Source of the DNA: a virus
Direction: 5' to 3' (one strand)
Length of the DNA: 64,000 bases
IMG/VR virus record: IMGVR_UViG_3300013120_000738
Coordinates: 62,001 to 126,000 of that record
Shown: positions 1,721 to 15,429 of the stretch, in pieces
How positions within the stretch are numbered: the stretch's first letter is position 1
How the letters are laid out: each line of letters opens with the position of its first letter
Program-made: the position numbers and the translations under genes
The notes under the pieces: generated by a model
Seen by the model: only the letters and a program-made list of their open reading frames with translations
Databases searched by the model: none
What the model was told of the DNA's origin: nothing

Positions 1721-2481
1721 TATACTGATATCTGCCCAGCACCTTTGCACTTCGGGCAAGTATCACCATTCACTTCACAATCGCCCCTACATACAGGACA
1801 ATTAGTCATTGTCTTAGCATATCCTTGCCTAGCAAAATCAGGAGTTCTATCCTGCATAGAATCATCAGCCATCCTCTTAAATCTATCCTGTAACTTCCTA
1901 TCATCCTCAGACTTTATAATTGCAACACGAGTAGTGCCTGTACCATCTACCCGTTTCCTCTGAATAGCCAACGGTTGTCCCTCTCTGCCCTCTACGACGC
2001 CCATTTGTACAGCACCATCACGGACATCATCCGGTAACTTATCCTGCAAATCAGAACTCTGTAGACTCTGATGAGATTCTACAGGACCCAAATCAGTAGC
2101 CCCGCCTACACTGACCATTCCAGGAGCACCATCTATCCTTGATGTCGATATTACATCTGGCGAATTAGGGTCTAATGCATCAGGTGCCTTCTTGGATTCA
2201 GTCACTGGTGGCTTTTGCTGTGGAGTAAGTGCAGATGGTTGAACCACAGCTACACCACCAGGAGTATCACTAACAGATAGCCCAAGTTTTTTGGCCATCT
2301 CCATAACTTCCTTGATCTTCTCCTGCTTGGCCTCATATGCCTCCCTAGCACTCTTAATAGTGGCTTCCTCTGCATGTTCGTCACAAATGTCAACAGTGAC
2401 CTTAGTACCATCCTCTAAGGTTACACTTAATGATGTGTTCAGATTTTCTGAACTCTCGCAATACACGCATTGTTTAGACAT
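1717..2481 (-). CDS. double zinc-finger protein, DnaJ-type CxxC at the C-terminus
   Basis: A 254-residue protein of unknown function. The N-terminus has a CxxC (CVYC) followed by a later C and H (DICDEH), which looks like a small zinc-binding domain. The middle is Pro/Ser/Asp-rich and probably disordered. The C-terminus carries CPVCRGDC and CPKCKGAG, resembling the CxxCxGxG zinc repeats of DnaJ. This suggests a nucleic-acid- or protein-binding adaptor, not an enzyme. It is convergent with the 79-residue gene, with overlapping stops, and its start overlaps the end of the upstream HNH gene by 8 bases. Confidence 0.75.
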   Translation of the reverse strand: MSKQCVYCESSENLNTSLSVTLEDGTKVTVDICDEHAEEATIKSAREAYEAKQEKIKEVMEMAKKLGLSVSDTPGGVAVVQPSALTPQQKPPVTESKKAPDALDPNSPDVISTSRIDGAPGMVSVGGATDLGPVESHQSLQSSDLQDKLPDDVRDGAVQMGVVEGREGQPLAIQRKRVDGTGTTRVAIIKSEDDRKLQDRFKRMADDSMQDRTPDFARQGYAKTMTNCPVCRGDCEVNGDTCPKCKGAGQISVY

Positions 2482-3025
2482 CTTTAAATTCCTTCAAGAT
2501 TGTTTTTATTTCATCTAGACTATGATTACTCTTTGCGAAATTAACCCATTTACAAACCAATTGTATATTACCTTTTATATATCCTTTCTCAGAATCAATT
2601 CGATCAATACTCATACTCCTAAGATCACGCGTCTTATGGCTCATAGGCATATTAGTTATAGCACATCTACCATCTTGTAACTGCCACAGAGATCTTAAAA
2701 ATTCAACATCAATATTATGAATTTTTCCTCTTTTGGTTGCAGATCTTTTTGATCTATTAACAAGTTCTGCTAAAAAGAAGTTTAACGTCTCGCGATACTT
2801 CCTCCTCTTTTGTTTATTATTTCTAGCGTATTCTCTATGATAGGTACGTTCAGCTTTTTTGTCTACCTTACCTTCTTTACGCCTCCTACGTCTAGCAGCA
2901 AGAATTTTGTCTTTATTCTTATGATATCTATCATTAGTATACTTGCGAAAACATTCAGGACACAAATGAGTAGACTTGTGCTTAGGTACATATTGTACAC
3001 CACATTTACACGTTTTAGTTCCCAT
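2474..3025 (-). CDS. HNH homing-type endonuclease
   Basis: A 183-residue protein. The N-terminus has a four-cysteine zinc site (CKC, CPEC), then a Lys/Arg-rich DNA-binding stretch. The C-terminal half is an HNH-like nuclease domain of the phage homing type: CAITNMPM, then SIDRIDSEKGYIKGNIQLVC and a helix with NFAKSNHS. This family nicks or cuts DNA at specific sites and often spreads by homing. It stands free between ordinary genes with no intron signs that I can see. It resembles the HNH genes at 27.5 and 48.6 kb. Confidence 0.85.
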   Translation of the reverse strand: MGTKTCKCGVQYVPKHKSTHLCPECFRKYTNDRYHKNKDKILAARRRRRKEGKVDKKAERTYHREYARNNKQKRRKYRETLNFFLAELVNRSKRSATKRGKIHNIDVEFLRSLWQLQDGRCAITNMPMSHKTRDLRSMSIDRIDSEKGYIKGNIQLVCKWVNFAKSNHSLDEIKTILKEFKDV

Positions 3026-3060
3026 AAATTAAATTTGACAACAAAATTTAGGTGATCAGG

Positions 3061-3468
3061 ATGACAAAAGTATCTATCATAGAAATTGATTTAGGCGTTT
3101 CTATAGATGATTTGATCGACGGCGACGTAACAGAACTATCCAAGGGTGCTCAAGAAGAATTAGATAACGCAATCCAGGCACAAAAGAAAGTTCAAGAACT
3201 AAAGGAGAAGAAAGAAAAAGAATCTAAAGAGGCTCAAGATAAAGTAACTGTAGTCATAGCAATAGCATATGATAAATTAGTGGAAGCGGGCGACAATGGC
3301 GTACCCGTAGAAGACATAAAAGACATAATTGGTACAGCAATATCCACTACTTCTGCATTCACTATCAGAATGAAAACATTCTTACGCAAGAAAGGTAATA
3401 AATACACTATATCTAGATCTAAGAAAGGTGGTAAAGCGATATATAAATTTACTCTATTTAACGGATAG
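3061..3468 (+). CDS. coiled-coil protein with C-terminal winged-helix-like region
   Basis: About 135 residues, unknown family. A strongly charged coiled coil (AQKKVQELKEKKEKESKEAQ) precedes a basic region resembling a winged helix (VTVVIAIAYDKLVEAG, TFLRKKGNKYTISRSKKGG), which suggests DNA binding. I chose ATG 3061 because AGGTGAT at 3050-3056 is a good ribosome site for it; a GTG at 3052 is also in frame. The 3' end overlaps the convergent lipoprotein gene by 11 bases. Confidence 0.7.
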   Translation: MTKVSIIEIDLGVSIDDLIDGDVTELSKGAQEELDNAIQAQKKVQELKEKKEKESKEAQDKVTVVIAIAYDKLVEAGDNGVPVEDIKDIIGTAISTTSAFTIRMKTFLRKKGNKYTISRSKKGGKAIYKFTLFNG

Positions 3469-3889
3469 TCCCACGTCTGAATTTCCCATCGTATTCTAGA
3501 AGATCTGAGTATTTCTCTACGCGGAGCTTAATACCAACCCTAGCACATACTATTGCACATCGATATATATATCTCTCATCTTTATCTTCCTTCGTGACTA
3601 GTATTATACCGGGCCTTCTCCCTGTGACTTCGGCATAATATAAACTCTGTCCGATAGCTTGTGCCCACTTCCCATTATCAGCCCAATCCACTTCCCATAC
3701 ATAATTATTCTCAGTATCGAGCATATCTACCCTAGTACCATCCCATAACCTATACTCGACACGGACTGGTGGGATACCATATTTAGGTGCTATCTTTTGT
3801 GCAACCAATTCTGGTTCACTAAGATCAGCACCAGATGTTGTCTCTAAACACCCAGAAAAGAGAACAGACGCAAGTAATAGTATTCTCAT
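3458..3889 (-). CDS. putative lipoprotein with PD-(D/E)XK nuclease-like motifs
   Basis: A 143-residue protein. The N-terminus is a lipoprotein signal peptide (LLLASVLFSGC, lipobox ending at Cys 14), so it is probably exported and membrane-anchored. The body contains RVDMLD, then VWEVDWADNGKWAQAIGQSL and a RPGIILV strand. This resembles a restriction-endonuclease-fold family with a D...ExD/K core and the helix KWAEAIGQ. Catalysis is inferred only. An exported nuclease-like lipoprotein in a phage could act in superinfection exclusion or on external DNA. Its start overlaps the alpha-CTD-like gene by 4 bases. Confidence 0.65.
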   Translation of the reverse strand: MRILLLASVLFSGCLETTSGADLSEPELVAQKIAPKYGIPPVRVEYRLWDGTRVDMLDTENNYVWEVDWADNGKWAQAIGQSLYYAEVTGRRPGIILVTKEDKDERYIYRCAIVCARVGIKLRVEKYSDLLEYDGKFRRGTIR

Positions 3890-4200
3890 TTCTCGTAAAA
3901 TCCTAATCTACGCAATATATCGAAGATCAAATCGACGCTCTTCTCACCAAAATTCGGGATTGCTTCCAAATCTTTTTTCTTAGCATGCAATAAGTCATAT
4001 AATGTATAAATACCTCTCCCCTCCAAGGCATTAATTATACGTTGTGTAAACCCATTATATCCAAGTATTGGATGAGACCTTTTAGCTTTTGATTTAGTGT
4101 CTGTCACATATTCAGATAGATGAGTATCTAATAATCTATCTAATTCGAATTGGGATAATTCTGAATAATGCTTAGCTTTCTTTCTGTATCGTTTAACCAT
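3886..4200 (-). CDS. stand-alone RNA polymerase alpha C-terminal-domain-like protein
   Basis: A 104-residue protein. Residues 53-100 match the alpha-CTD helix-hairpin-helix fold of RpoA: RIINALEGRGIYTLYDLL, then LEAIPNFGEKSVDLIFDIL, equivalent to the usual NCLKAEGI...DLL...LL..PNLGKKS...I. The first 45 residues are basic and lack the alpha N-terminal domain. It could bind DNA (UP-element-like) or host polymerase and so alter transcription. It sits between the nuclease-like lipoprotein and uracil-DNA glycosylase genes, with 4- and 8-base overlaps. The fold is a good match; the function is inference. Confidence 0.8.
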   Translation of the reverse strand: MVKRYRKKAKHYSELSQFELDRLLDTHLSEYVTDTKSKAKRSHPILGYNGFTQRIINALEGRGIYTLYDLLHAKKKDLEAIPNFGEKSVDLIFDILRRLGFYEK

Positions 4201-4963
4201 GTCTCTTCTTCAAAGCCTTTACCAGTGAACACATAGTCTTGATCTGCTTTTCGAACGACGTTCTTCTTGACGGATCTCTAAAGTTCACTGGTGATGGGTG
4301 GTAGATGGGGAATACTGATATATTAAATTTACTACTCTTAGTAATAGTCCCAAGCGATTTTGCAAATGGTGTACCTGGGCATAATATATCAAAAGCAACA
4401 GCTCCTAAAGCAATGACAATGTGAGGCTTAATAAGGTTCAGTTCCATCCTCAAGAAAGGCTCACATCTCTCTACAATCCTTGCATCAGGTTTGGTATTGC
4501 CCTTAGTCCAACATCTTACAGCATTACATATATAGAACCATGTGCGATCTAGCCCATGCTTGGCTATTTCATCATCAAAATTCTTGCCAGCGGCTCCAAC
4601 AAATGGTTCACGTTTCTCAAGCTCGTCCCATCCAGGATTTTGTCCAACTACAACAAACCTTACAGGATTCATATTGCTCAATACATGTGGATCTCTAACA
4701 GTATTGCGCATTTCAGCACCCTGCTTACCGAGATTGCACATAGAACATGCCGTACAAGTACTATTCAACTGTTTCAACATACGAAATTTGCGATCATATG
4801 GTGATTCACCTTTTACACTTAGTACACTTATATAATCTGGCATGTATACTTTCTCCGGTGCGGTAGAGGTAAAATTGAACCAATCAAATTCTTCTAACTC
4901 ACGCAGATCCTCAGGTACTTCATCACGCTTTCTTGGATGCTTGGCGTAAGCAGAAACCGTCAT
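4193..4963 (-). CDS. uracil-DNA glycosylase, family 4/5 (Fe-S type)
   Basis: A 256-residue enzyme that removes uracil from DNA. Cysteines C70, C73, C151 and C167 are spaced as the 4Fe-4S ligands of family 4 enzymes (C76 is extra). VVGQNPGWDE (about 105-114) is the water-activating motif, PFVGAAGKNFD binds uracil, and YHPSP (221-225) is the DNA-intercalation motif. The N-terminal 60 residues are an extension, and the start overlaps kdsB by 41 bases. It fits a repair role beside recA, or protection of DNA containing unusual bases. Confidence 0.9.
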   Translation of the reverse strand: MTVSAYAKHPRKRDEVPEDLRELEEFDWFNFTSTAPEKVYMPDYISVLSVKGESPYDRKFRMLKQLNSTCTACSMCNLGKQGAEMRNTVRDPHVLSNMNPVRFVVVGQNPGWDELEKREPFVGAAGKNFDDEIAKHGLDRTWFYICNAVRCWTKGNTKPDARIVERCEPFLRMELNLIKPHIVIALGAVAFDILCPGTPFAKSLGTITKSSKFNISVFPIYHPSPVNFRDPSRRTSFEKQIKTMCSLVKALKKRHG

Positions 4964-5624
4964 ATTCTTCTCTAGTGTCTATTCCGGCGGTTTCGATATG
5001 TCTAATACAGACTTTTATACGAAAACCAGATTGTAACCAATTAAGTTGCTCTAGCCTCTCGCATGCATACTGGTCTATTTCAAGACTAGGGAATGCTAGC
5101 AAGAATTCTCTTCTAAATGCATAAATACCTATATGTTTTAATGCGACCGATTGGCCATTATGTGGTATCGGACATCTACTAAAGTACATCGCTATATTCT
5201 CATGAGTCACCACTACTTTAACAACATCTGGTGAATTATACTCTTCTGGAGTAGCACGCGCAGCAAGAGTGACAATATCTATATTAGGATCATCAAAATC
5301 TACTAGCATATCTTGGACATACTGGCCGTCCAATTCTGGTTCATCACCCTGCCAATTTACAAGCACGCCCCAATCATATGTTGCAGCAATTGCTGCTATT
5401 CTAGCCGTTCCAGAATCGTACTTGCCAGTTAATACTACATCAATGTATTTATGACACGCTTCATAAATCTCTTTATCTTCCGTAGCAACTACCACATTAT
5501 CAAAATATTTCTTAGCAGCATCTACAGTATGCAATATAAGTGGTTTACCAGTTTCTTCTAGCAATAATTTATTTGGAAGCCGAACAGATTCTAATCTAGC
5601 TGGAATAATAACAATATTATTCAT
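4923..5624 (-). CDS. kdsB: 3-deoxy-manno-octulosonate cytidylyltransferase (CMP-Kdo synthetase)
   Basis: A 233-residue nucleotidyltransferase matching KdsB across its length (usual length about 245). It activates Kdo with CTP to CMP-Kdo, the donor for lipopolysaccharide core. Motifs: IPARLESVRLPNKLL at the nucleotide-binding N-terminus, NWQGDEPEL with catalytic Asp, KHIGIYAFRREFL, EQLNWL, and AGIDTREE near the end. It is cytoplasmic in bacteria. The neighbours are a flavoprotein and glycosylase genes, with an 8-base overlap to the upstream flavoprotein gene. A Kdo-like sugar donor in a phage suggests surface-glycan synthesis or a related keto-sugar substrate. Confidence 0.9.
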   Translation of the reverse strand: MNNIVIIPARLESVRLPNKLLLEETGKPLILHTVDAAKKYFDNVVVATEDKEIYEACHKYIDVVLTGKYDSGTARIAAIAATYDWGVLVNWQGDEPELDGQYVQDMLVDFDDPNIDIVTLAARATPEEYNSPDVVKVVVTHENIAMYFSRCPIPHNGQSVALKHIGIYAFRREFLLAFPSLEIDQYACERLEQLNWLQSGFRIKVCIRHIETAGIDTREEYDGFCLRQASKKA

Positions 5625-6564
5625 TAAGCTTTATTTCTTTAGGCTTGGCAGGAACAAGGCCTCTATTAGCATACTTCAATAGTCTAAGTATGCAACTGCC
5701 CACATCCATACACCAATCCCATTGGGCATAGCCACCAACACAAAACACATCTTCCTCCTCCAAATTCCTAAGATCTGGAATTTCACCGGCAGGCAATGCA
5801 TTCTCGAGTGACGTCCCATCGATAATATCAAATGATTCTATAACCCGCATCAAGTATATGCCAACATCCTTAAGCTCTTCAGTCCAATATATCAAATATC
5901 TGTTTGGTGCTATATTAGTCACTTTGAAAAATAATATCCCAGGATCAACCACTAGTAATTGGTTGTTACCCTCGAAGTCCAAAGATTCACTATGAATATG
6001 TAAGAAATATAATGAACTAGTTGGTAAATCTATCGATGCACTTCTCAAACCACATAGAACGTCTAACGGGATAGTACTAATAGCCTTATCAAATTCCTCA
6101 GTAACCCCATTCCTAGTAAAACTATGATTTCCTATAGCCGTTACTTCACCTTTCTCAGCCTCCTCTTTTAATTCGGTCATATATCGACTTACCAAGGACT
6201 TATATAATTCGTTTATCTGTACGTCATAAACGAACGTGACTAATTTCTTATAATATGCTACGCTTTGGGTCGGTACCTTAGTACCGAATATTTTGGACAA
6301 CCAGTCATTACAGATGCCATCATTTGAATCAGTTATGATCTGCCCACCAATAGACCAGGCTCTTTTATATGGGTAAATTGTCTTTTTACCGCACAATCCA
6401 TCAATAAATGGATCTAACTCATCATTCCTAGTCAGGAAATTATCGGCGATTGCTGGGTTAAATGAGTATAGTCGGCTCTTGTAGAATGGAATTACTTTCC
6501 AAGAGCTGCCAAGTATTTCTCTGGCTAATAGGCCGACTATGCCTGATCCGAATATTACATTCAT
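5617..6564 (-). CDS. FAD-dependent protein, UDP-galactopyranose mutase/amine-oxidase-like
   Basis: A 315-residue protein. It begins with a Rossmann dinucleotide-binding strand, VIFGSGIVGLLARE (GxGxxG at residues 6-11), and ends with VGGYAQWDWCMDVG, resembling the closing FAD-contact segment of UDP-galactopyranose mutases and related flavoproteins (GRYAQW...). The middle has little obvious similarity. It sits next to kdsB, so sugar-nucleotide chemistry is plausible, but the substrate is not visible. Its 5' end overlaps the next upstream gene by 4 bases. Confidence 0.65.
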   Translation of the reverse strand: MNVIFGSGIVGLLAREILGSSWKVIPFYKSRLYSFNPAIADNFLTRNDELDPFIDGLCGKKTIYPYKRAWSIGGQIITDSNDGICNDWLSKIFGTKVPTQSVAYYKKLVTFVYDVQINELYKSLVSRYMTELKEEAEKGEVTAIGNHSFTRNGVTEEFDKAISTIPLDVLCGLRSASIDLPTSSLYFLHIHSESLDFEGNNQLLVVDPGILFFKVTNIAPNRYLIYWTEELKDVGIYLMRVIESFDIIDGTSLENALPAGEIPDLRNLEEEDVFCVGGYAQWDWCMDVGSCILRLLKYANRGLVPAKPKEIKLNE

Positions 6565-7139
6565 TCCGGCTCTACTAATTCTGCGTCATCAAATTGGGCT
6601 TCCTTGGCCTCTCCCTTGCTCTCTTTTGCACTTTCGTCGGATACGGCCTCTGATGTCTTTTCTTTTTCTGCGCAACTCCCCGTGTCCTCCGTGGCCTCCT
6701 TTGGGGTCTCCCCTTCATCTAATATGTTCACAAGTTCTTCGGATATTGTTTCTGATTCGTCCTCGGATAATCTTTCAGCAACCGATCCAGTATCTTGTTC
6801 AATATTTGGATCATACAATAGTGGGTCCAGTTCAGTCTCTGGAACTCGTCCAGTTTCTACCGGATTTGTGAAGGGGTCTGGTACAGGTTCTTGATCTGGA
6901 TAACAATAATAGCATTTGCAGTGGATTATCTCAAATGGTGGGTCAGACAGGATTACATCAAACTCAAGTCCAGCACCACAATCTGGACATGTAGCTGATA
7001 ATTTCGATGGTTTCACCGGAAATCCAAAAGCATTGGTACTATCCTTGTGGTTGGCAATCTCAGAATCAAATTCTATTGGCCTAGTGTACATGTTTTGGCC
7101 GTTGACTGTTATTTCCACAGGATCGAATGGATTGTACAT
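6561..7139 (-). CDS. acidic zinc-ribbon-like protein
   Basis: A 192-residue protein of unknown function. A zinc-ribbon-like cysteine cluster (CPDCGAGLEFD..., then CKCYYC) occupies about residues 50-85. The remaining 100 residues are very rich in Glu, Ser, Thr and Pro and are probably disordered. It sits 2 bases from the upstream cysteine-rich gene, in the same operon. Confidence 0.65.
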   Translation of the reverse strand: MYNPFDPVEITVNGQNMYTRPIEFDSEIANHKDSTNAFGFPVKPSKLSATCPDCGAGLEFDVILSDPPFEIIHCKCYYCYPDQEPVPDPFTNPVETGRVPETELDPLLYDPNIEQDTGSVAERLSEDESETISEELVNILDEGETPKEATEDTGSCAEKEKTSEAVSDESAKESKGEAKEAQFDDAELVEPE

Positions 7140-7141
7140 TG

Positions 7142-7702
7142 TTATGCACCTTTACTGGACCATTGTGATGCCACTTTACGGACTTGTTCTGCTTGTTTTC
7201 TCAATTGCGTAAAAGCGTCTTCGCATATAGTAACCTCCAAAAACCGCTCGTCTGTATTCATTTGGGCCGGTCGTATAAATTTCGTACTTTGACATTTAGC
7301 ACATGGTTTGTCATCGTCCCACGTCGAAGTATGACATTCAACACAAACGTTTGGTTGCCCAGTTATTTTGACATTGACTCTGGTTACAACTATATAGTAA
7401 TAACAATAAGTACCAGCAAGTATATTACCAGTCATTTCACAAATTTGTTTTACACCCACGCTCCTCTTCTTAGACATTACTTTCTTATAATTATCAACCA
7501 CTTTCTGACTTAATTTACTAAAGCAATGCTCACAAATATCTAACGAAAATGTTACAGAGCTTCTGAGAATTGCATCAATAGCTGGTCGTCTATTATTTTC
7601 TACAGAAGCACTATGAAAATCGAATGAATAATATATAAAATCATTCTCATATATCGTGCCACAATGATCACACGCTATGCCACTTCTATCACTTGTCTGC
7701 AT
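7142..7702 (-). CDS. cysteine-rich zinc-binding hypothetical protein
   Basis: A 186-residue protein with three apparent zinc-binding groups: CDHC (11-14), CEHC (about 57-60) and CVEC...CAKC (about 120-137). It ends with a helical segment. No family is recognised. It overlaps the start region of the QueC-like gene by 14 bases and shares its strand, so co-transcription is likely, but a link to base modification is not shown by the sequence. Confidence 0.65.
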   Translation of the reverse strand: MQTSDRSGIACDHCGTIYENDFIYYSFDFHSASVENNRRPAIDAILRSSVTFSLDICEHCFSKLSQKVVDNYKKVMSKKRSVGVKQICEMTGNILAGTYCYYYIVVTRVNVKITGQPNVCVECHTSTWDDDKPCAKCQSTKFIRPAQMNTDERFLEVTICEDAFTQLRKQAEQVRKVASQWSSKGA

Positions 7703-8279
7703 TTTTCATTCTCTTGCACGACGCACATTTACCACAACGTCGCCCATCTTTTCTAGGAAGTTCACAATACCAAACATGCTCAAATAAGCCTTCAAGCTTT
7801 AATTTAGTTACTATCTCTCCCTTATCCATCCATTCTAATGGGAAAACAAGATCACACGATTTCATATTAATAGCTAATAAATATGTAAACGCATATTTAT
7901 ACCATTCCATGTAGTGCCAAATATCATCGCCACGAATATATGCGACTGCTAACTCTTCACCATCATTTAGGTAACCAGTACCAGCAAATAACCAGATATT
8001 TGGCTGTGCGAGCCCATGCGCACCATCACCAAGCGTGATACCACGCTGTGCCGCCTTAATAGTCATCTCACAATGAGGAAATTTATACCCACGAGCACGA
8101 AACTCTTTAATCAACCGCCTCCTAGCACGTTTTTCATATGGACATGCTAGAACTTGATCATGATTGACAGCAATAGTTCTTACATCCTTGCCAGATACAA
8201 GACTGTCAAATAAAAGAAGAGTAGAGTCGCACCCACCGGACCATAAAATTAATCTAGGCTTCTCAGGAGTCCCATCCAC
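7689..8279 (-). CDS. queC: QueC-like 7-cyano-7-deazaguanine synthase
   Basis: A 196-residue ATP-pyrophosphatase of the QueC type. The PP-loop SGGCDST is at residues 14-20, and the C-terminal zinc site CGKCASCKRM at about 181-190. QueC converts 7-carboxy-7-deazaguanine to preQ0 using ammonia and ATP. In phages, queuosine-pathway genes are known to place 7-deazaguanines in DNA. The partner genes (folE, queD, queE, a DNA transglycosylase) are not in this window. It overlaps the polymerase gene downstream of its start by 17 bases. QueC-like is secure; preQ0 as product is inference. Confidence 0.85.
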   Translation of the reverse strand: MDGTPEKPRLILWSGGCDSTLLLFDSLVSGKDVRTIAVNHDQVLACPYEKRARRRLIKEFRARGYKFPHCEMTIKAAQRGITLGDGAHGLAQPNIWLFAGTGYLNDGEELAVAYIRGDDIWHYMEWYKYAFTYLLAINMKSCDLVFPLEWMDKGEIVTKLKLEGLFEHVWYCELPRKDGRRCGKCASCKRMKNADK

Positions 8280-10968
8280 GCTGCAACAACCTTATAATTA
8301 TCTCGCCGCGAGCAAGGGTAAAAGTACCTCTCTTCTCATCGTATTCAACGATCATCTGAACGCCACTACCAGGTACCAGATTGTTCTCATCCTGAATCCC
8401 AAGCTCTCTGGAAAATATCAGAACCAAAGCATTTTGGATACCATCGCTCACGAAAACTCTCGCATATGGTTTCTTATTGCGAGAAATCGAGAATTCTAGA
8501 TCGGTGATCACAACCTCAAGCTTCGGCTCTCCACCATTCTTAGCTACCAACTTTGCATCTTCTATCGTACAATTACCTTCTATAGCATACAGGTCTAGCG
8601 GGGAATGTAAGTAATAGCCAAGATATTTCTTCTCAAATTCTAGCACTTCCTGTAGTGTAAAATCCTCTTCATATAATGCCATCACCTTTTCTGACGAATC
8701 ATCAGGTTTTGGATTCCATTTTTCTAGTTTAGGAGGAATTTTCCTACGTTTCGGGTAGAGTTTCTTATATTCATCAATCTGCCTCTGCCTCTCCTCTTGG
8801 ACAGCTTCTTCTGTCCATCCTTCTTTATTCAGCAGTTTCTGCTTTATCTCACGTTTCAATTGCGTGATATCCTTGCCCGTACAATACTTATACCTATAGT
8901 ATTCCCATGTAGCCCTAGCATTTCTATAGCCCTCGAACCGTCTGAACGCCCCAAGCTTTATAAAGGCTTCCATTACGGTCTTTTTCTTGCCCTTTTCTGC
9001 AATAAATTCATCCAGTGTTGTAAACGTACTACGACCTTCCCACAATGGTGCGGTAGTATCACCTATTCCCTTAATACCGATCAGTCCTTGATTCACCACA
9101 TCGCCGGTAACGGTAAAATCGGCCGTAAGATTTTCTACGTTAGTCGTCTCGAATTTTACACCCCTAACTTTCTTCTTGGGAGGCTGTGTACCAGCGTATG
9201 TGGTAGATGTAGGTTTCCACCCTTCTGAACGTGCTACCCCCATATACCGAACTAGTTTGTCAGGATGACATTCACTCATTACAGAAGCCCACCACTCGGG
9301 TGCGAAATGAGCCTTCAACCAAAGACAGCGATGGGCTACAAGACAATAACTAACAGCATGACTACGATTGAACGCATACCGCCCAAACGTCTTCATCTTC
9401 TCCCACCACTCCCTAGCTTCAGCTTCCCCAAGCACCTTCGAGGCACCAATCACCCATTTCTTCTCTACCGGCTTAAGCTTATCTGCCCATTTCTTAGCGA
9501 CTGCTTTTCGGGCATCTTGAGCTTCTGGTGCTGTAAAATATGCGATCTTCTGCCAAATAGCTTGTAATTGTTCCTGATAAACTATAACACCATGAGTATC
9601 ATTCAAAACCTCCAATATATCAGGATGCAATTTCTTCCGCCATCTACCCCTAGAATCATCACGATTTGCTACTGCCTCTGGGATAGAAGCCATAGGACCA
9701 GGGTGACCCATAGCATTAAACAACATCAAATCCTCGAAATTCCGCACACCATTAGCTAATATACTCTTAGCAAGATCTGTGTCGAATTGAAAAACTCCAT
9801 CTGTCTTCATCTCATTTGCAAGGCGAAGCACATGTTTATCATTGAGGTCGATATAAACCTTTTTACCTTTCCTATCAAAGAAATATCCCGCCCTGTTCTT
9901 AGTTGGGTCTATATCATCCCAACCGTCCATACTCTTACCAAATGATATCCCTCTATTCTGCTCAATAAGCTGACAACAAGTATAAATATACTTGAGTGTC
10001 TTCAGTCCTAGCAAATCCCACTTCTGATATCCGAATTTAGATAACTGAGTATTGCGACCTTCCGTCCACATACTGATCCAATATCCCTTGTTGCTACTCT
10101 TAGCCATAGGGATATTGCCATATAATGGTCTATCAGTAATAATGAGTGCACCAGCATGCATGCCCATATTTCTGATTCGACCAACCAATCTCGTAGCAAG
10201 ACTAATAACCTTCGGATAACTCCTAGCAAATTCTCGTAACTTCTCATGCTCTTTCAGCAATTGACCAATGGTTGGATTTTCTGTATCGGTAGATCCACAA
10301 TTAGGACATTTTGTACCATCATGGGATGTTCTACATTCAACCTTCTCACCAGTCTTCTCATCTATAGTATGCCCTTTACAGACTGACTTGCCGCCGTCTT
10401 TTACATCATCGACATCTTCAGGCAAATTAGTTGTTAATTCATACGCTTCTGTCTTGTCGACAAGTCCTGTCGCATCACAGACATCGATTATAGCTGATTT
10501 GAATTTGTATGTTGTCCAGGTACCAACACTGCAGACAGAACCATAACCATCACTTACATCAGTACCATATTGTGATATAGCATATTCCTTAATAGGATCA
10601 CGTGCCTCAGGAAGACAATCCACATCTACATCAGGCATGTCTGGGTCTTTGCGAAGATCTGACGGAACAAAGCCATGTTCAGTCTTAAACTTCGCTACCT
10701 CAGCGGCCTTTACTGTATTAAGTATAGGCTCTTTTCGGCCTGCTAGAGGATCGTCAGAAACAAGACCTAACAACCAAAGGAAAAGTAGATTATTTCCATC
10801 CGATTGAAATCTCTTACCTTCATTATAATATTGGTTGAATTTAGCTATAGCACCTTGCTTCTCAACCTCAGTCAATTCAAATTTCAATCGTCGGCTATAT
10901 TCCTCTGGCAAGCCTACAACTTTCGAGGTAGCCAACTCCTTCATTTCTTCCCAAGTGATATCAGCCAT
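8263..10968 (-). CDS. dnaE: DNA polymerase III alpha, C-terminal half (split DnaE)
   Basis: A 901-residue catalytic half of a bacterial-type replicative polymerase. The palm aspartates are D115 and D117 in PDVDVD, with the third at about D318 in WDLLGLKTL. PGPMASIPE, VIVYQEQ and FNRSHAVSY are classic DnaE fingers/thumb motifs, and an OB-fold-like region lies near the C-terminus. A four-cysteine insertion (CKGH...C...CPNC) lies at about 195-225. Residues 22-80 resemble a degenerate copy of the palm-entry segment that is also in the N-terminal half (LLFLWLLGL..DDPL against SLVCFLIGI..LDPM). No intein is visible. The PHP domain is in a separate gene at 12.3-13.7 kb. Confidence 0.9.
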   Translation of the reverse strand: MADITWEEMKELATSKVVGLPEEYSRRLKFELTEVEKQGAIAKFNQYYNEGKRFQSDGNNLLFLWLLGLVSDDPLAGRKEPILNTVKAAEVAKFKTEHGFVPSDLRKDPDMPDVDVDCLPEARDPIKEYAISQYGTDVSDGYGSVCSVGTWTTYKFKSAIIDVCDATGLVDKTEAYELTTNLPEDVDDVKDGGKSVCKGHTIDEKTGEKVECRTSHDGTKCPNCGSTDTENPTIGQLLKEHEKLREFARSYPKVISLATRLVGRIRNMGMHAGALIITDRPLYGNIPMAKSSNKGYWISMWTEGRNTQLSKFGYQKWDLLGLKTLKYIYTCCQLIEQNRGISFGKSMDGWDDIDPTKNRAGYFFDRKGKKVYIDLNDKHVLRLANEMKTDGVFQFDTDLAKSILANGVRNFEDLMLFNAMGHPGPMASIPEAVANRDDSRGRWRKKLHPDILEVLNDTHGVIVYQEQLQAIWQKIAYFTAPEAQDARKAVAKKWADKLKPVEKKWVIGASKVLGEAEAREWWEKMKTFGRYAFNRSHAVSYCLVAHRCLWLKAHFAPEWWASVMSECHPDKLVRYMGVARSEGWKPTSTTYAGTQPPKKKVRGVKFETTNVENLTADFTVTGDVVNQGLIGIKGIGDTTAPLWEGRSTFTTLDEFIAEKGKKKTVMEAFIKLGAFRRFEGYRNARATWEYYRYKYCTGKDITQLKREIKQKLLNKEGWTEEAVQEERQRQIDEYKKLYPKRRKIPPKLEKWNPKPDDSSEKVMALYEEDFTLQEVLEFEKKYLGYYLHSPLDLYAIEGNCTIEDAKLVAKNGGEPKLEVVITDLEFSISRNKKPYARVFVSDGIQNALVLIFSRELGIQDENNLVPGSGVQMIVEYDEKRGTFTLARGEIIIRLLQRGWDS

Positions 10969-11324
10969 GCTTGATACTCTTCCAATCTATCCGGATGGTG
11001 ACCTTTCACATGCAAAGTCCTGCCGGGAGTACTACGTAATTCCTTACCACAGAATGGGCATTCTAATTCATTGATTGGTTCTAATTCTGGCTCTTTTTCC
11101 ACTATCTCTGGCACTGAATCCCAATCCAAGACCCACGGCTCCTTGATAAGGTATTTGCCGTCTCTGGCTTCGGCGGGCGCATAATACAAATAATAACCAT
11201 TTTCTTTGGCTTTTCGAAGCAAGCTCTGATGTTCTTTTTTACTTTTTGGTAGATGAGATGATATTATTTTGCTTGGCGCTTTCACAAGCACAAATGCAGT
11301 TCTTTTATATGTGATATCTGACAT
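10941..11324 (-). CDS. C2H2 zinc-finger-like protein between the polymerase halves
   Basis: A 127-residue protein. Residues 87-111 contain a C2H2-like finger (CPFCGKELRSTPGRTLHVKGHH) followed by a helix. The N-terminal part is a short alpha/beta region. It overlaps the start of the C-terminal polymerase gene by 28 bases, so the two are probably coupled. Its position between the polymerase halves suggests a replication-linked DNA-binding role, but this is guilt by association. Confidence 0.65.
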   Translation of the reverse strand: MSDITYKRTAFVLVKAPSKIISSHLPKSKKEHQSLLRKAKENGYYLYYAPAEARDGKYLIKEPWVLDWDSVPEIVEKEPELEPINELECPFCGKELRSTPGRTLHVKGHHPDRLEEYQAWLISLGKK

Positions 11325-11330
11325 ACATTC

Positions 11331-11750
11331 TTAACACGGCAGATCATCAATAGTGCCACTATCATAGTTTTCTTGATCTTTCAACGCACGTTCTGCGGCT
11401 GACTTAGCAACTAACATATAATTATTTAATTCATCTATAATTTCAATAGATATATCCTTATAATAAGTATACCACCTTAAAGCTTTAGGACGAGAACTTA
11501 TCATAGCCTCTATCTCGGGATGGCATATATAAAGACATGCCGGAAGCCCTCTAAAACCTGGCAGAACTGCCGATAAACCCAATACCACACTACGAAACAT
11601 AGCTTCTTCTTCAGATGAACTACCAAGAGTATATCCATATATTCTATGGCGGTATCTTCCATCTCCAACGACCAACAAAACACCACAACTAGATGACCGT
11701 AGAGCATCAGAATCTTCTGTTATACTATAACAATATATATCAATTTTCAT
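11331..11750 (-). CDS. hypothetical protein, possibly RNase H-like fold
   Basis: A 139-residue protein. The order of elements, a first strand with an acidic residue (DIYCYSI), hydrophobic strands (GVLLVV, RIYGYTLG), an SSEEEAMFRSVVLGL helix, then CLYICHPEI, recalls the RNase H fold, where a Glu on the first helix and an Asp on the next strand bind metal. The match is weak and the catalytic set is incomplete. It starts 4 bases inside the preceding gene. Confidence 0.5.
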   Translation of the reverse strand: MKIDIYCYSITEDSDALRSSSCGVLLVVGDGRYRHRIYGYTLGSSSEEEAMFRSVVLGLSAVLPGFRGLPACLYICHPEIEAMISSRPKALRWYTYYKDISIEIIDELNNYMLVAKSAAERALKDQENYDSGTIDDLPC

Positions 11751-12265
11751 AGAACATTACCAGCAGAATCTCGCAAATCAGGATACGTTGCCTTAGTAAA
11801 AGTACTAAGAGCTCTCAATGTATCTGCCATCCCTTTAAGAACAGCATTTTTGGCAGCTATTTTATCTGGTAATCCCCTACTCTTTCCCAGCATTACTAAT
11901 ATCTCGTCACCTTTTTGCCGGATATTCTCCGGAAATTCCAATCCCTGATTATTAGCTTTGGCTTTTCTCTCATCAACAGATCGCTGGATGAATAAGGCCA
12001 ATGCTTCTACAATGCTGAAAGCTAAACTACTTATCTCCGTTTCCAACTTTTCCAGTTCTTCCTTGGCCTTATCGGGCGTCATCGCCAATATTAAATATAA
12101 TTTATCTATAAAATCTATCGACTTCAATCCGTATATGCATAATTGATTGTTAGGGCCTTGATACATCATCAAGTGCAATTGCATTGAATGCTTCAATTCC
12201 TTCAATGCCTGGCTATTAGAATTTATATTAATTGTAAGTTCAGGAGTATCTCTTTTCTTGGCCAT
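11747..12265 (-). CDS. helical hypothetical protein between the polymerase halves
   Basis: A 172-residue, mostly helical protein of unknown family (DKAKEELEKLETEISSLAF, FIQRSVDERKAKANNQ). It begins 48 bases after the end of the N-terminal polymerase half and overlaps the next gene by 4 bases. It could help join the two polymerase parts, but nothing in the sequence shows that directly. Confidence 0.65.
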   Translation of the reverse strand: MAKKRDTPELTININSNSQALKELKHSMQLHLMMYQGPNNQLCIYGLKSIDFIDKLYLILAMTPDKAKEELEKLETEISSLAFSIVEALALFIQRSVDERKAKANNQGLEFPENIRQKGDEILVMLGKSRGLPDKIAAKNAVLKGMADTLRALSTFTKATYPDLRDSAGNVL

Positions 12266-12313
12266 AGTTGAACTCTCTTACTGGTAGTTATTGACAAGAC
12301 TTATTATAAATAC

Positions 12314-13747
12314 TCATTCAACTATCTCTTTCGGTACTGATAAATCCAGCATATATCCACCACGACTAGAAGCTAAGAATCTATCGAACGATAATCCCCA
12401 TAGCATAGGATCAAGGACATGAATACCGATCAGGAAGCACACTAACGACCCACCAGCACTTCCTCTAGGACTAAATGGCCAGCCGTGTTGTTTCCCAAAT
12501 CTTATCAAATCGCGTGTAATTAAAAAGTAACTAGCAAAACCCTTATCGATAAATCTCTTTAGTTCTATACGAGCTTGATCTATATATGTCACTTCATTAC
12601 CATCAATGAAAAACTTCCGCTTATCCTTATCAAGTCCTCGTTTCTTCAACTCTATTGCTACAATTTCTTTTAGTTTTTTATTAGCATCAGGAATTTCTGG
12701 GATTTTCGGTGCTGTATCAACGGTAAATGGTTCGCATTTATCTGCTATTTGAAGCGTGTTATCACACATCGCCTCGAATATTCTATCATCTACCCCATCA
12801 CTGTACTTGCCATTTTTAAATGTAGCCCATAGCTCTGCTCTAGACTTCATAAATTGTTCATCACTATTCACATGGAATAGATCTGGAGAATCTATAGTTG
12901 TTCCCTGTTCGACAGCCATCATTACTTTCTGTAATATAAAATCTTCTCGACGAAGATAATGGCAATCGTTGGTCAAAGTAAGTGGCAGTCCGAGATGATC
13001 TGCGACAGCAACTAACGTTCTAAACGTCTTATAATCATCCGGAATCCCAGGCATTTGTGTTTCTATATAAAAATCCTCTCCAAAAACTTTACGGAACTTT
13101 CTTACCCAAGCTAATGCAGCGTCTGTACGTTGTTTCCCAGTCCTCTCGAATACAACCTCGTCTTCTTTATTCTTCAATTCTCTATATCGCAATTCATGAC
13201 ACACTGGACCATTAAGGCACCCAGACAGAACTATGAGTCCTTCCTTGAATTCACACAATTTATCAAACCATATACGATTATATTGGGTTTTGCCCATCCC
13301 GAACAAACCCGTATCGTAGGCTTGTGTCGTTAATTTTATTAGATTATCGAATCCTGTTTGGTTCTTACATAGGACTGTCAGGTGTCTGTTTCGGCCGATA
13401 CGATATGATAAATCAGGGTTGGCGTCTCGCCATTCTTTGGATCGTATCTTAAAGCCTCTAGCTACTAAGTCCTGTCGTTGTGGTTCAAAATCATTGAAGT
13501 ATATCTCACAACCTGGAATATACTTCAACCCGTGCTTTTTGAATGCGAGATACATGTCTGGCACTGAAGCCATATGACCATGCTCTGTAGCACTCATTGC
13601 GGGATAACCACGCTTTGCACATTGCTCAGCATATTGCTCTGGCGTGGCTACACCATCTAGCGCAGAAAAGACTGTATGATTATGAAGGTATACAAATTCA
13701 CTTGGGCCTTGATAATCTTTTGGATCGTATTCGTTCGACATTTTCAA
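12314..13747 (-). CDS. dnaE: DNA polymerase III alpha, N-terminal half (PHP domain and start of palm)
   Basis: A 477-residue protein. The PHP domain begins at HNHTVFSALDG (from residue 22) and keeps its likely metal ligands (HNH, TEHGHM, GCEIY, NDCHY), so it may retain 3'-5' exonuclease proofreading. The last 90 residues are the beginning of the DnaE palm (YFLITRDLIRFGKQHGWPFS, then GGSLVCFLIG, LDPM, DRFLASSRGGYML). The gene then stops just before the point where the catalytic PDVDVD strand should follow. That strand is in the separate gene at 8.3-11.0 kb. The protein cannot polymerise alone. Confidence 0.9.
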   Translation of the reverse strand: MKMSNEYDPKDYQGPSEFVYLHNHTVFSALDGVATPEQYAEQCAKRGYPAMSATEHGHMASVPDMYLAFKKHGLKYIPGCEIYFNDFEPQRQDLVARGFKIRSKEWRDANPDLSYRIGRNRHLTVLCKNQTGFDNLIKLTTQAYDTGLFGMGKTQYNRIWFDKLCEFKEGLIVLSGCLNGPVCHELRYRELKNKEDEVVFERTGKQRTDAALAWVRKFRKVFGEDFYIETQMPGIPDDYKTFRTLVAVADHLGLPLTLTNDCHYLRREDFILQKVMMAVEQGTTIDSPDLFHVNSDEQFMKSRAELWATFKNGKYSDGVDDRIFEAMCDNTLQIADKCEPFTVDTAPKIPEIPDANKKLKEIVAIELKKRGLDKDKRKFFIDGNEVTYIDQARIELKRFIDKGFASYFLITRDLIRFGKQHGWPFSPRGSAGGSLVCFLIGIHVLDPMLWGLSFDRFLASSRGGYMLDLSVPKEIVE

Positions 13748-14384
13748 GCATCTCTTTGGACACGATTGGCCTATCTTCTAATACTGACCGCACAACCTGT
13801 GTAACAAGGACATTATCCAGATCTTCAACATCAGGATATGATGGTGACGCTGGTGTTTTACCAAGTCGTTGCATAAACTTTTCGAACACAAACATAGCGT
13901 TCTGTTTATGATTAGTGCATACTTGCCAGCACCTACATAAATAATTGTATAATTGGTCCGCATCTAAACGATTAAGAAGCTTCTCAAAATTTTTACCTAT
14001 ATTACGCCCAAATGTAGTTTCTATCCTTGATGGATTAGCCACCTCTATAAAATATCGCGAACCATACTGATTCGAAAGTGAAGATTCAAAAATCGCCTTC
14101 CTAGTCCTTTTTACAGTCTCAATAACGATCGCCCTTACATCATCCGCTGTAAAGCCCTTCTTAATTCCTTCATCAAATGCAATAGCCAAATCGCACAACC
14201 CTTGATATGATATCCTTTGCTGGGTTTCTGCCTGTAACCAGCTATCAATATTGGCGACAGCCATTCTAGAGCATCTATTATTATACAGCCATCTTAGATG
14301 TTGATCTAGATAATATGTCTTATCATCTATAGAGAAGACTATTATGTCACCTGATACATATGTAATAGACAAAGGCAAGCTCAT
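13698..14384 (-). CDS. hypothetical protein upstream of dnaE-N
   Basis: A 228-residue protein of unknown family, mixed then helical (YYLDQHLRWLYNN, RKAIFESSLSNQYGSRYFIE, NAMFVFEKFMQRLG). I chose ATG 14384; a start 19 codons upstream would lie deep inside the divergent glycosyltransferase gene, and a later ATG at 14264 is also possible. With this start it shares the bases CATG with the divergent gene's start. It overlaps dnaE-N by about 50 bases. Confidence 0.65.
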   Translation of the reverse strand: MSLPLSITYVSGDIIVFSIDDKTYYLDQHLRWLYNNRCSRMAVANIDSWLQAETQQRISYQGLCDLAIAFDEGIKKGFTADDVRAIVIETVKRTRKAIFESSLSNQYGSRYFIEVANPSRIETTFGRNIGKNFEKLLNRLDADQLYNYLCRCWQVCTNHKQNAMFVFEKFMQRLGKTPASPSYPDVEDLDNVLVTQVVRSVLEDRPIVSKEMLENVERIRSKRLSRPK

Positions 14385-15429
14385 GATTCTGCTAAACGAA
14401 AAAAGGACTACCAGTGTAGTAATAACATGTGCTGGGTACACACATTATCTGAAACAAGCTATAGATAGCCTAAAACGACAAATCATTGGGCCAGACGAAA
14501 TAATAGTAGTATTTGATAACACTTCATTACCGCCACAACAAGACGGTATAAAATATCTACGGGTAAATTATGGAAGCCCATTTCTAAGCAGAAAAAGAGG
14601 TTTTGAAGAGGCACGATCTGAAGTTATTATTTTTCTAGACGCAGATGACTATCTTAGCGATGACTACATAGCCCAGGGATTATCTATAAAAACTGATAAT
14701 AATATAATTTATTCAGATATGCAATTATTCGGGGATTTGGATAAGTTAGTTGAATACCCTTCATTTATTCCATCTAAACGAATTTCACAAGTCAACTTTC
14801 TACATATTGGATGCTTAGTAAGTGCTGACACTATTCGACAAAGTAAAGCATTTTCTAGCCTTCCGCCCCCAACATGTCATGAAGATTGGGTGTTTTGGCG
14901 CAGGCTCGTCAGATATGGATACCAATACCAAAAACAAAGTGGGATCTACTACGCTAGACAACATGATAATAATAGATCTTGCGATATCGAATCCGGCCCA
15001 TATTATGAAGCAAAGGGGATAGCAGCTGACATCATCGCATTTATAAAGATTGATGGTGGACAACACGCAAGAGCTGTAATAGACCAATGGCCGGATAAGC
15101 AAAGACAATTGGTATGTAATGAGTATCAGGATTTTGTATGCGAGAGGATGATAATATATAATGGTAACCCAATAGAAGCAGTGAGAAGCCTAACAGCTGA
15201 TTATGTCTACTTCTATGATTCAAACTCCACTCACATAGATATCCAACAATTGCTGAGAGAATTCAATCATGACGTAGCCGCCGTTCATTGTCAAAAACAT
15301 GAATTTTGGCATGCTACTATGGCAGTGATAGATATTATTAAAGAAAGGCCAACTGGGGGTCCATTATGCTCAAAGAAGAACGAACAGATACTACTGCTAA
15401 AGACCACTTCTGTACCATCATCACTTTAA
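14383..15429 (+). CDS. family 2 glycosyltransferase
   Basis: A 348-residue GT-A enzyme that transfers a sugar from a nucleotide donor. SVVITCAGYTHYLKQAIDSL and PDEIIVVFDN are the nucleotide-binding start of GT2 proteins, FLDADDYLS holds the metal-binding DxD, and the HEDWVFWRR segment gives a probable catalytic Asp. ATG 14383 is preferred over 14344 because the domain begins directly after it. It is first of four glycosyltransferase genes in a row that overlap at their ends. The donor and acceptor are not visible. Confidence 0.85.
   Translation: MILLNEKRTTSVVITCAGYTHYLKQAIDSLKRQIIGPDEIIVVFDNTSLPPQQDGIKYLRVNYGSPFLSRKRGFEEARSEVIIFLDADDYLSDDYIAQGLSIKTDNNIIYSDMQLFGDLDKLVEYPSFIPSKRISQVNFLHIGCLVSADTIRQSKAFSSLPPPTCHEDWVFWRRLVRYGYQYQKQSGIYYARQHDNNRSCDIESGPYYEAKGIAADIIAFIKIDGGQHARAVIDQWPDKQRQLVCNEYQDFVCERMIIYNGNPIEAVRSLTADYVYFYDSNSTHIDIQQLLREFNHDVAAVHCQKHEFWHATMAVIDIIKERPTGGPLCSKKNEQILLLKTTSVPSSL

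Follow-up and report, generated by a model that had tools for sequence, protein, structure and literature searches.

We find that virus record IMGVR_UViG_3300013120_000738 encodes a C-family (DnaE) DNA polymerase divided between two genes, α-N (12314-13741; 475 aa, with a PHP domain, the palm entry and a degenerate catalytic strand) and α-C (8263-10968; 901 aa, with a degenerate palm entry followed by the catalytic palm, fingers, HhH and OB). Unless another locus is named, coordinates refer to the window, i.e., the whole 64,000-nucleotide stretch of DNA that was analyzed (bases 62001-126000 of the 227,725-bp record), in which all features described here lie on the minus strand. Our analysis confirms that this phage DnaE is really split across two genes, as an earlier note made from the sequence had seen. 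With a probability of roughly 0.8, we propose that α-N and α-C constitute a two-subunit DNA polymerase III alpha whose active site lies at their interface without covalent joining. α-N would supply the PHP exonuclease together with the palm-entry helices and their GRGS loop for the phosphates of the incoming nucleotide, while the three catalytic aspartates would come from α-C, along with thumb, fingers, HhH and OB. The two proteins would associate non-covalently to create the active site between them. We infer that the assembled pair would be active, with a role in both replication and proofreading.

The polymerase is cut once, inside the palm

The Pfam DNA_pol3_alpha profile is shared out between the two proteins, with positions 16-98 on α-N (E = 2.7e-19) and 99-260 on α-C (E = 3.7e-19), and phrog_405 divides likewise into positions 42-439 on α-N and 440-1043 on α-C. 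Because the profile halves abut exactly at one point, we conclude that there is a single clean cut just before PDVDVD, the very place inside the palm where the earlier note had put it. Alignment of both halves to solved DnaE structures, a check which that note had proposed, placed the palm entry and catalytic strand in matching positions. The C-family DnaE features that we tested—three aspartates, the GS loop and the PHP, fingers, HhH and OB domains—are all present across the two chains, encoded by two genes rather than as a single polypeptide; neither half alone has a complete palm, and together they have one.

In α-N, Pfam recognizes the PHP domain (13055-13687; E = 1.3e-33), and the predicted fold of the protein matches DnaE structures (E ~ 1e-21). 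Alignment to Thermus and Mycobacterium (Mtb) DnaE assigned nine PHP metal-ligand positions (H21, H23, D30, H55, E80, H121, C176, D260 and H262 in A2 numbering), all invariant in relatives, which we take to be the metal ligands of Mycobacterium DnaE1-type proofreading; judged by these residues, α-N appears to carry the full metal-ligand set of PHP-type proofreading as in that enzyme. A functional-looking palm entry (12362-12685), located by alignment to solved DnaE structures, contains the nucleotide-binding GS loop RGSAGGS (12446-12466), whose residues R427, G428, S429, G431, G432 and S433 are invariant in A2. The C-terminal tail of α-N (GYMLDLSVP..., 12317-12361) is a degenerate catalytic strand, a look-alike without the aspartates that ends all N halves (consensus YMLNVKMP), which read RGGYMLNVKMP-like where intact kin have KDYPDVDVDF. 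As for the start of the gene, ATG 13741 is more likely because relatives align from that Met, with TTG 13747 also possible.

In α-C, the catalytic strand PDVDVD (10618-10635), which bears two metal-binding aspartates, was aligned to solved DnaE catalytic strands, and D113, D115 and D117 are invariant in the aligned relatives. The third catalytic aspartate, D318 (10015-10017), is invariant in A1 and lies in KWDLLGL, which aligns with KMDFLGL of Thermus DnaE. Catalytic aspartates all reside on C halves, and none on N halves. The fingers domain (PF17657, residues 325-510; 9439-9996; E = 6.4e-28) and the HhH (HHH_6) were identified by Pfam, and the OB, which makes up the C-terminal part together with the HhH (8299-9162), was identified by fold matches, with modelled beta strands at residues 816-885. 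An additional feature of α-C, located after the catalytic strand and ahead of the third aspartate, is a zinc-ribbon-like insertion (residues 197-224; 10297-10380) with four nearly invariant cysteines, which is missing in some relatives, such as L012.

The two halves are separate genes

Three small genes lie between the halves, just as originally described, encoding 172 aa (11747-12265), 139 aa (11331-11750) and 127 aa (10941-11324). The gaps from α-N through α-C are all small or overlapping, with the third intervening gene overlapping the α-C start by 28 nt. The first is conserved in near relatives only and has no Pfam or PHROG match above chance, the second is conserved in near relatives, and the third has a weak C2H2-zinc-finger-like match; no match to an endonuclease family (Pfam/PHROG) was found among the three. 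The search for the same gene order that the earlier note had suggested thus had a divided outcome, with the three genes present in near relatives and absent elsewhere, the halves of farther relatives being separated by 0.7 to 5.9 kb filled with other genes. Directly behind α-C, and overlapping its end, is a QueC-like gene (7-deazaguanine pathway; 7689-8279), which was not found at the α-C end in the relatives compared.

It is exceedingly improbable that splicing, of RNA or of protein, or frameshifting joins the halves after all. The junction does behave as a recurrent insertion site, with an apparent split intein in phage L134 and an ORF break in Bacillus phage G, and inteins are located elsewhere in relatives; at the present locus, however, Pfam recognizes no intein domain, both ends at the break are palm homologues, and no Rfam RNA was found from 7500 to 14600 up to E = 1. 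The absence of an intein asserted earlier is therefore borne out here, although in relatives inteins or split inteins occupy other positions. A start, a stop and a ribosome-binding-like site (GGAAGAG ahead of α-C) are present for each half separately, the degenerate segments on both sides of the junction are conserved as protein, and joining would double the palm entry. One contig of a relative has the two halves 56 kb apart on opposite strands, which rules out the missed frameshift that the earlier note had raised as a danger to its reading; a frameshift is further excluded by the 1.3-kb gap with its three genes and by clade-wide conservation, and a cis intron is rejected by the lack of an Rfam match at 7500-14600 together with the unlinked halves. 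Likewise, Rfam recognized no intron in Bacillus phage G and five odd relatives.

In L134, which is another phage, DnaE is split at exactly the same junction (2326-3993 and 4866-7172), with an apparent split intein (NPLR^CLDP / VLTHN^SEFPDIDTD) that was read by eye and matched no intein model. We also observed relatives in which apparent split inteins make an additional cut, near residue 535 of the C half or residue 428 of the N half, leaving the polymerase in 3-4 pieces (L002 2205-6872, L003, L013, L037, L039, L041, L047 and L051, with L040 and L046 cut in the N part). In five further relatives (L045 ~4716-5402, L081 10114-10771, L087 10314-10903, L088 10322-11755 and L089 4864-5411), the catalytic-strand codons are interrupted at one and the same codon, PD[IV]|DID, by differing small insertions that create a stop; here the palm-entry copy forms an ORF of its own whose tail is intein-like, an ORF of ~50 aa ends at PDI*, and three of the five C-core ORFs have no ordinary start codon before DID.

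The halves carry complementary worn copies

Residues 1-108 of α-C (10645-10968) form an N-terminal extension that hhalign and profile matches identify as a degenerate palm-entry copy. In an alignment of 36 C-half N-termini (first ~110 residues, catalytic strand excluded), the extension matched the N-half palm entry (P = 1.6e-8) and intact DnaE (P = 5.9e-7) in register, spanning roughly from the PHP/palm boundary to the DP motif; the degenerate copy that had been noted in the first ~110 residues is real and reaches further than noted. The extension profile matches nearly all later-fetched intact phage DnaEs, at the palm entry only, with at most 32 bits; the top score among 3000 shuffled decoys was 9.5 bits. 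In several relatives, the Pfam model match on the C half runs from positions 5-16 through 260, with positions 3-98 already present on their N halves. The earlier proposal of duplication with complementary loss is strongly supported as homology (hhalign, profile matches, motif loss and the palm-entry tree), with the worn palm entry of α-C and the worn catalytic strand of α-N presumably arising from duplication of the palm, whether by tandem duplication or by other recombination.

What the extension has lost is the GPGRGS loop, with R, G and S at 0% vs. 100% in N halves, and the RF..R motif, which is kept in 100% of N halves and is gone, or almost gone, from the C-half copy. Because the column-wise match between distant extensions and the intact profile is incomplete, the loop loss also rests on direct alignment. 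Both worn copies are nonetheless conserved as protein under purifying selection, with dN/dS in close pairs of 0.056-0.081 for the extension and 0-0.02 for the α-N tail of 14-15 residues. Selection would retain them probably because they complete the fold of each half and dock the halves to one another.

An unlikely alternative reading of the extension is that α-C is a self-sufficient PHP-less polymerase using its own extension as palm entry, with α-N a PHP nuclease whose palm is vestigial. The extension does begin near the PHP/palm boundary, retains both the helices and the DP motif, evolves under purifying selection and is modelled by AF2 with pLDDT 72-89, and two relatives have PHP-less mini-DnaEs. 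The loop and RF..R motif that it lacks, however, are near invariant in intact DnaEs, and the PHP-less mini-DnaEs do keep the GS loop. In several relatives, moreover, the extension is a separate ORF, and intact DnaEs that nest among the split forms keep the N-type entry without any extension.

These one-chain relatives, which correspond exactly to N plus C minus the extension, are the strongest sequence evidence for a single enzyme: since they keep only the α-N-type palm entry, α-N and α-C are most likely one enzyme, and since that palm entry, in the two sampled, groups with N halves, a fused N plus C without extension is a natural form of the enzyme. As the best reading of the sequences, we infer that both proteins would be needed for one active site. 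AF2 models of either half alone, built from shallow alignments, are poor exactly at the shared palm, which would fit a need for the partner and may be used as a hint only.

A point against the two-subunit explanation is that one palm has room for only one of the two palm entries. One tentative and somewhat doubtful solution is that the worn copy acts as a docking or placeholder module, filling the α-C palm until α-N displaces it, such that polymerase and proofreading nuclease might be turned on together only upon assembly; recombination between the homologous overlaps, as suggested by the nested intact DnaEs, could then re-fuse the gene, making the fission reversible.

It is very improbable that the split gene is a decaying pseudogene, with the genome copied by a PolA-like ORF or a host enzyme. 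The record does contain a PolA-like ORF (L098 4468-5673, minus strand, ~3.3-4.5 kb outside the window start), but this is short (~400 aa), and the catalytic, GS and PHP residues of the split polymerase have all been preserved without change across a deeply diverged clade, with low dN/dS. Given this PolA-like ORF, the split DnaE is the probable rather than the certain replicase. Across the 227,725-bp record, we found no further DNA_pol3_alpha match beyond α-N and α-C, and hence no second intact DnaE of the kind that the earlier note had named as fatal to its interpretation, nor any B-family polymerase or DEDD-type (RNase_T) exonuclease; the record also encodes a DnaB helicase, and no beta clamp was found with Pfam, a further point against the two-subunit explanation.

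Distribution and history of the split

Scans of IMG/VR revealed a main group of relatives (N halves 46-75% identical) and a distant group (C halves 24-27%), both split at the same point and both with the extension, such that the split is a repeated feature of a phage clade that is broad and deeply diverged. Among 19 IMG/VR records checked for halves, every split one had both (17/17). Searching bacterial and archaeal genome contigs with the C half yielded no relative.

To reconstruct this history, we built trees of N plus C with the extension left out. The trees for N and for C have broadly the same shape, and the main and distant groups form one clade with SH-type support of 0.994 and 99.5 in two trees. 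Three intact DnaEs (LR756511, L103 and L059), each a single chain with one palm entry of the α-N type and no extension, nest with the distant split group. Placing all split forms together apart from their intact kin was rejected (AU p = 1e-7), and monophyly of the distant split group was not (p = 0.48). In the palm-entry tree, all 25 sampled extensions form one clade (99.9/100), with the intact LR756511 and L059 grouping with distant N halves (98.7/99). That each group underwent its own duplication was marginally rejected by the AU test (p = 0.047) and was not rejected by KH (p = 0.06) or SH (p = 0.08).

With intact DnaEs nested close to the distant split group, the split can have arisen by a single fission only if the gene was re-fused later. 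The simplest reading of the trees would be one duplication-fission followed by one re-fusion, and this history is the weaker part of our argument because of long branches and short alignments. A possible but less favored origin is that a split intein or homing endonuclease once inserted at the catalytic strand later decayed, with the extension recruited separately, or that two independent fissions took place. The interruption of L134 and phage G at the same point speaks for such an origin, as does the re-fusion that a single fission requires, whereas the extension being a palm-entry homologue with shared GS-loop loss, the clustering of all sampled extensions and the marginal AU rejection speak against it.

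Two of the relatives, L100 (875-2626, minus strand) and L101 (2914-4593, minus strand), have an extra PHP-less mini-DnaE of 583 and 559 aa, respectively, which keeps the GS loop and PDIDID. L065 (5789-9665) has a split DnaE whose C-half extension matches the extension profile (P = 4e-5); its tree position is unsettled, and it is possibly an independent case.

Comparison with other divided polymerases

Cyanobacterial DnaE is encoded in two pieces joined by split-intein protein trans-splicing. The phage polymerase resembles it as a C-family enzyme encoded in two pieces, and differs in that its halves have no intein and both carry a worn homologous overlap. Intact phage DnaEs, such as LR756511, L059 and L103, which are closely related to the distant split group, and that of Streptomyces phage Maneekul, have the same order PHP-palm-thumb-fingers-HhH-OB, but on one chain with one palm entry and no extension. 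In Bacillus phage G (gp329/gp331/gp339), the first DnaE ORF also stops just before the catalytic strand; unlike α-N and α-C, this DnaE contains an intein internally, a GIY-YIG-like gene lies at its break and no worn palm-entry copy was seen, and the break looks like an insertion into one gene.

To our knowledge, no C-family replicase with its nucleotide-binding loop and aspartates on different proteins has been described without an intein, and our literature search, which covered few subscription journals, found no report of an intein-free C-family replicase divided between loop and aspartates. Split phage polymerases as such are already known; what sets α-N and α-C apart is their polymerase family, the lack of a splicing element, a cut placed at the catalytic strand and the conserved overlap. 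They would represent a natural two-part palm in a C-family replicase. They also offer an instance of gene fission in which the overlapping parts have degenerated in a complementary way that can be followed residue by residue, with relatives in which the gene has apparently re-fused. Searches for intact DnaE would overlook the replicase of many large phages, and, given the recurrence of the split across a wide phage clade, the formation of one active site from two chains is directly testable.

For an active two-chain enzyme, a precedent may be found in the B-family gp43 of Aeromonas phages 25 and 44RR, which is split into 43A and 43B, the halves from phage 25 co-purifying and being active (PMC2988022). 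Here, too, two genes encode the replicative polymerase of a phage and no intein is involved, but the fold is unrelated, the split is tied to a seg endonuclease or untranslated sequence, and the passage describing it mentions no duplicated overlap such as that of α-N and α-C (PMC2988022). The Jug huge phages have polymerase genes in fragments, with group I introns and endonuclease genes between them (PMC12363816), whereas no intron or endonuclease was recognized between α-N and α-C, each of which is an independent conserved gene.

Finally, we also observed DnaE in two ORFs divided at other places in Rhodococcus phage Grayson, Mycobacterium phage Candle and Staphylococcus phage MVC_VPHSA2 (loci L018 4995-8727, L021 4977-8616 and L019 3436-6542). 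In Grayson and Candle, PHP lies apart from the palm, the PHP part of Candle being annotated as a sliding clamp.
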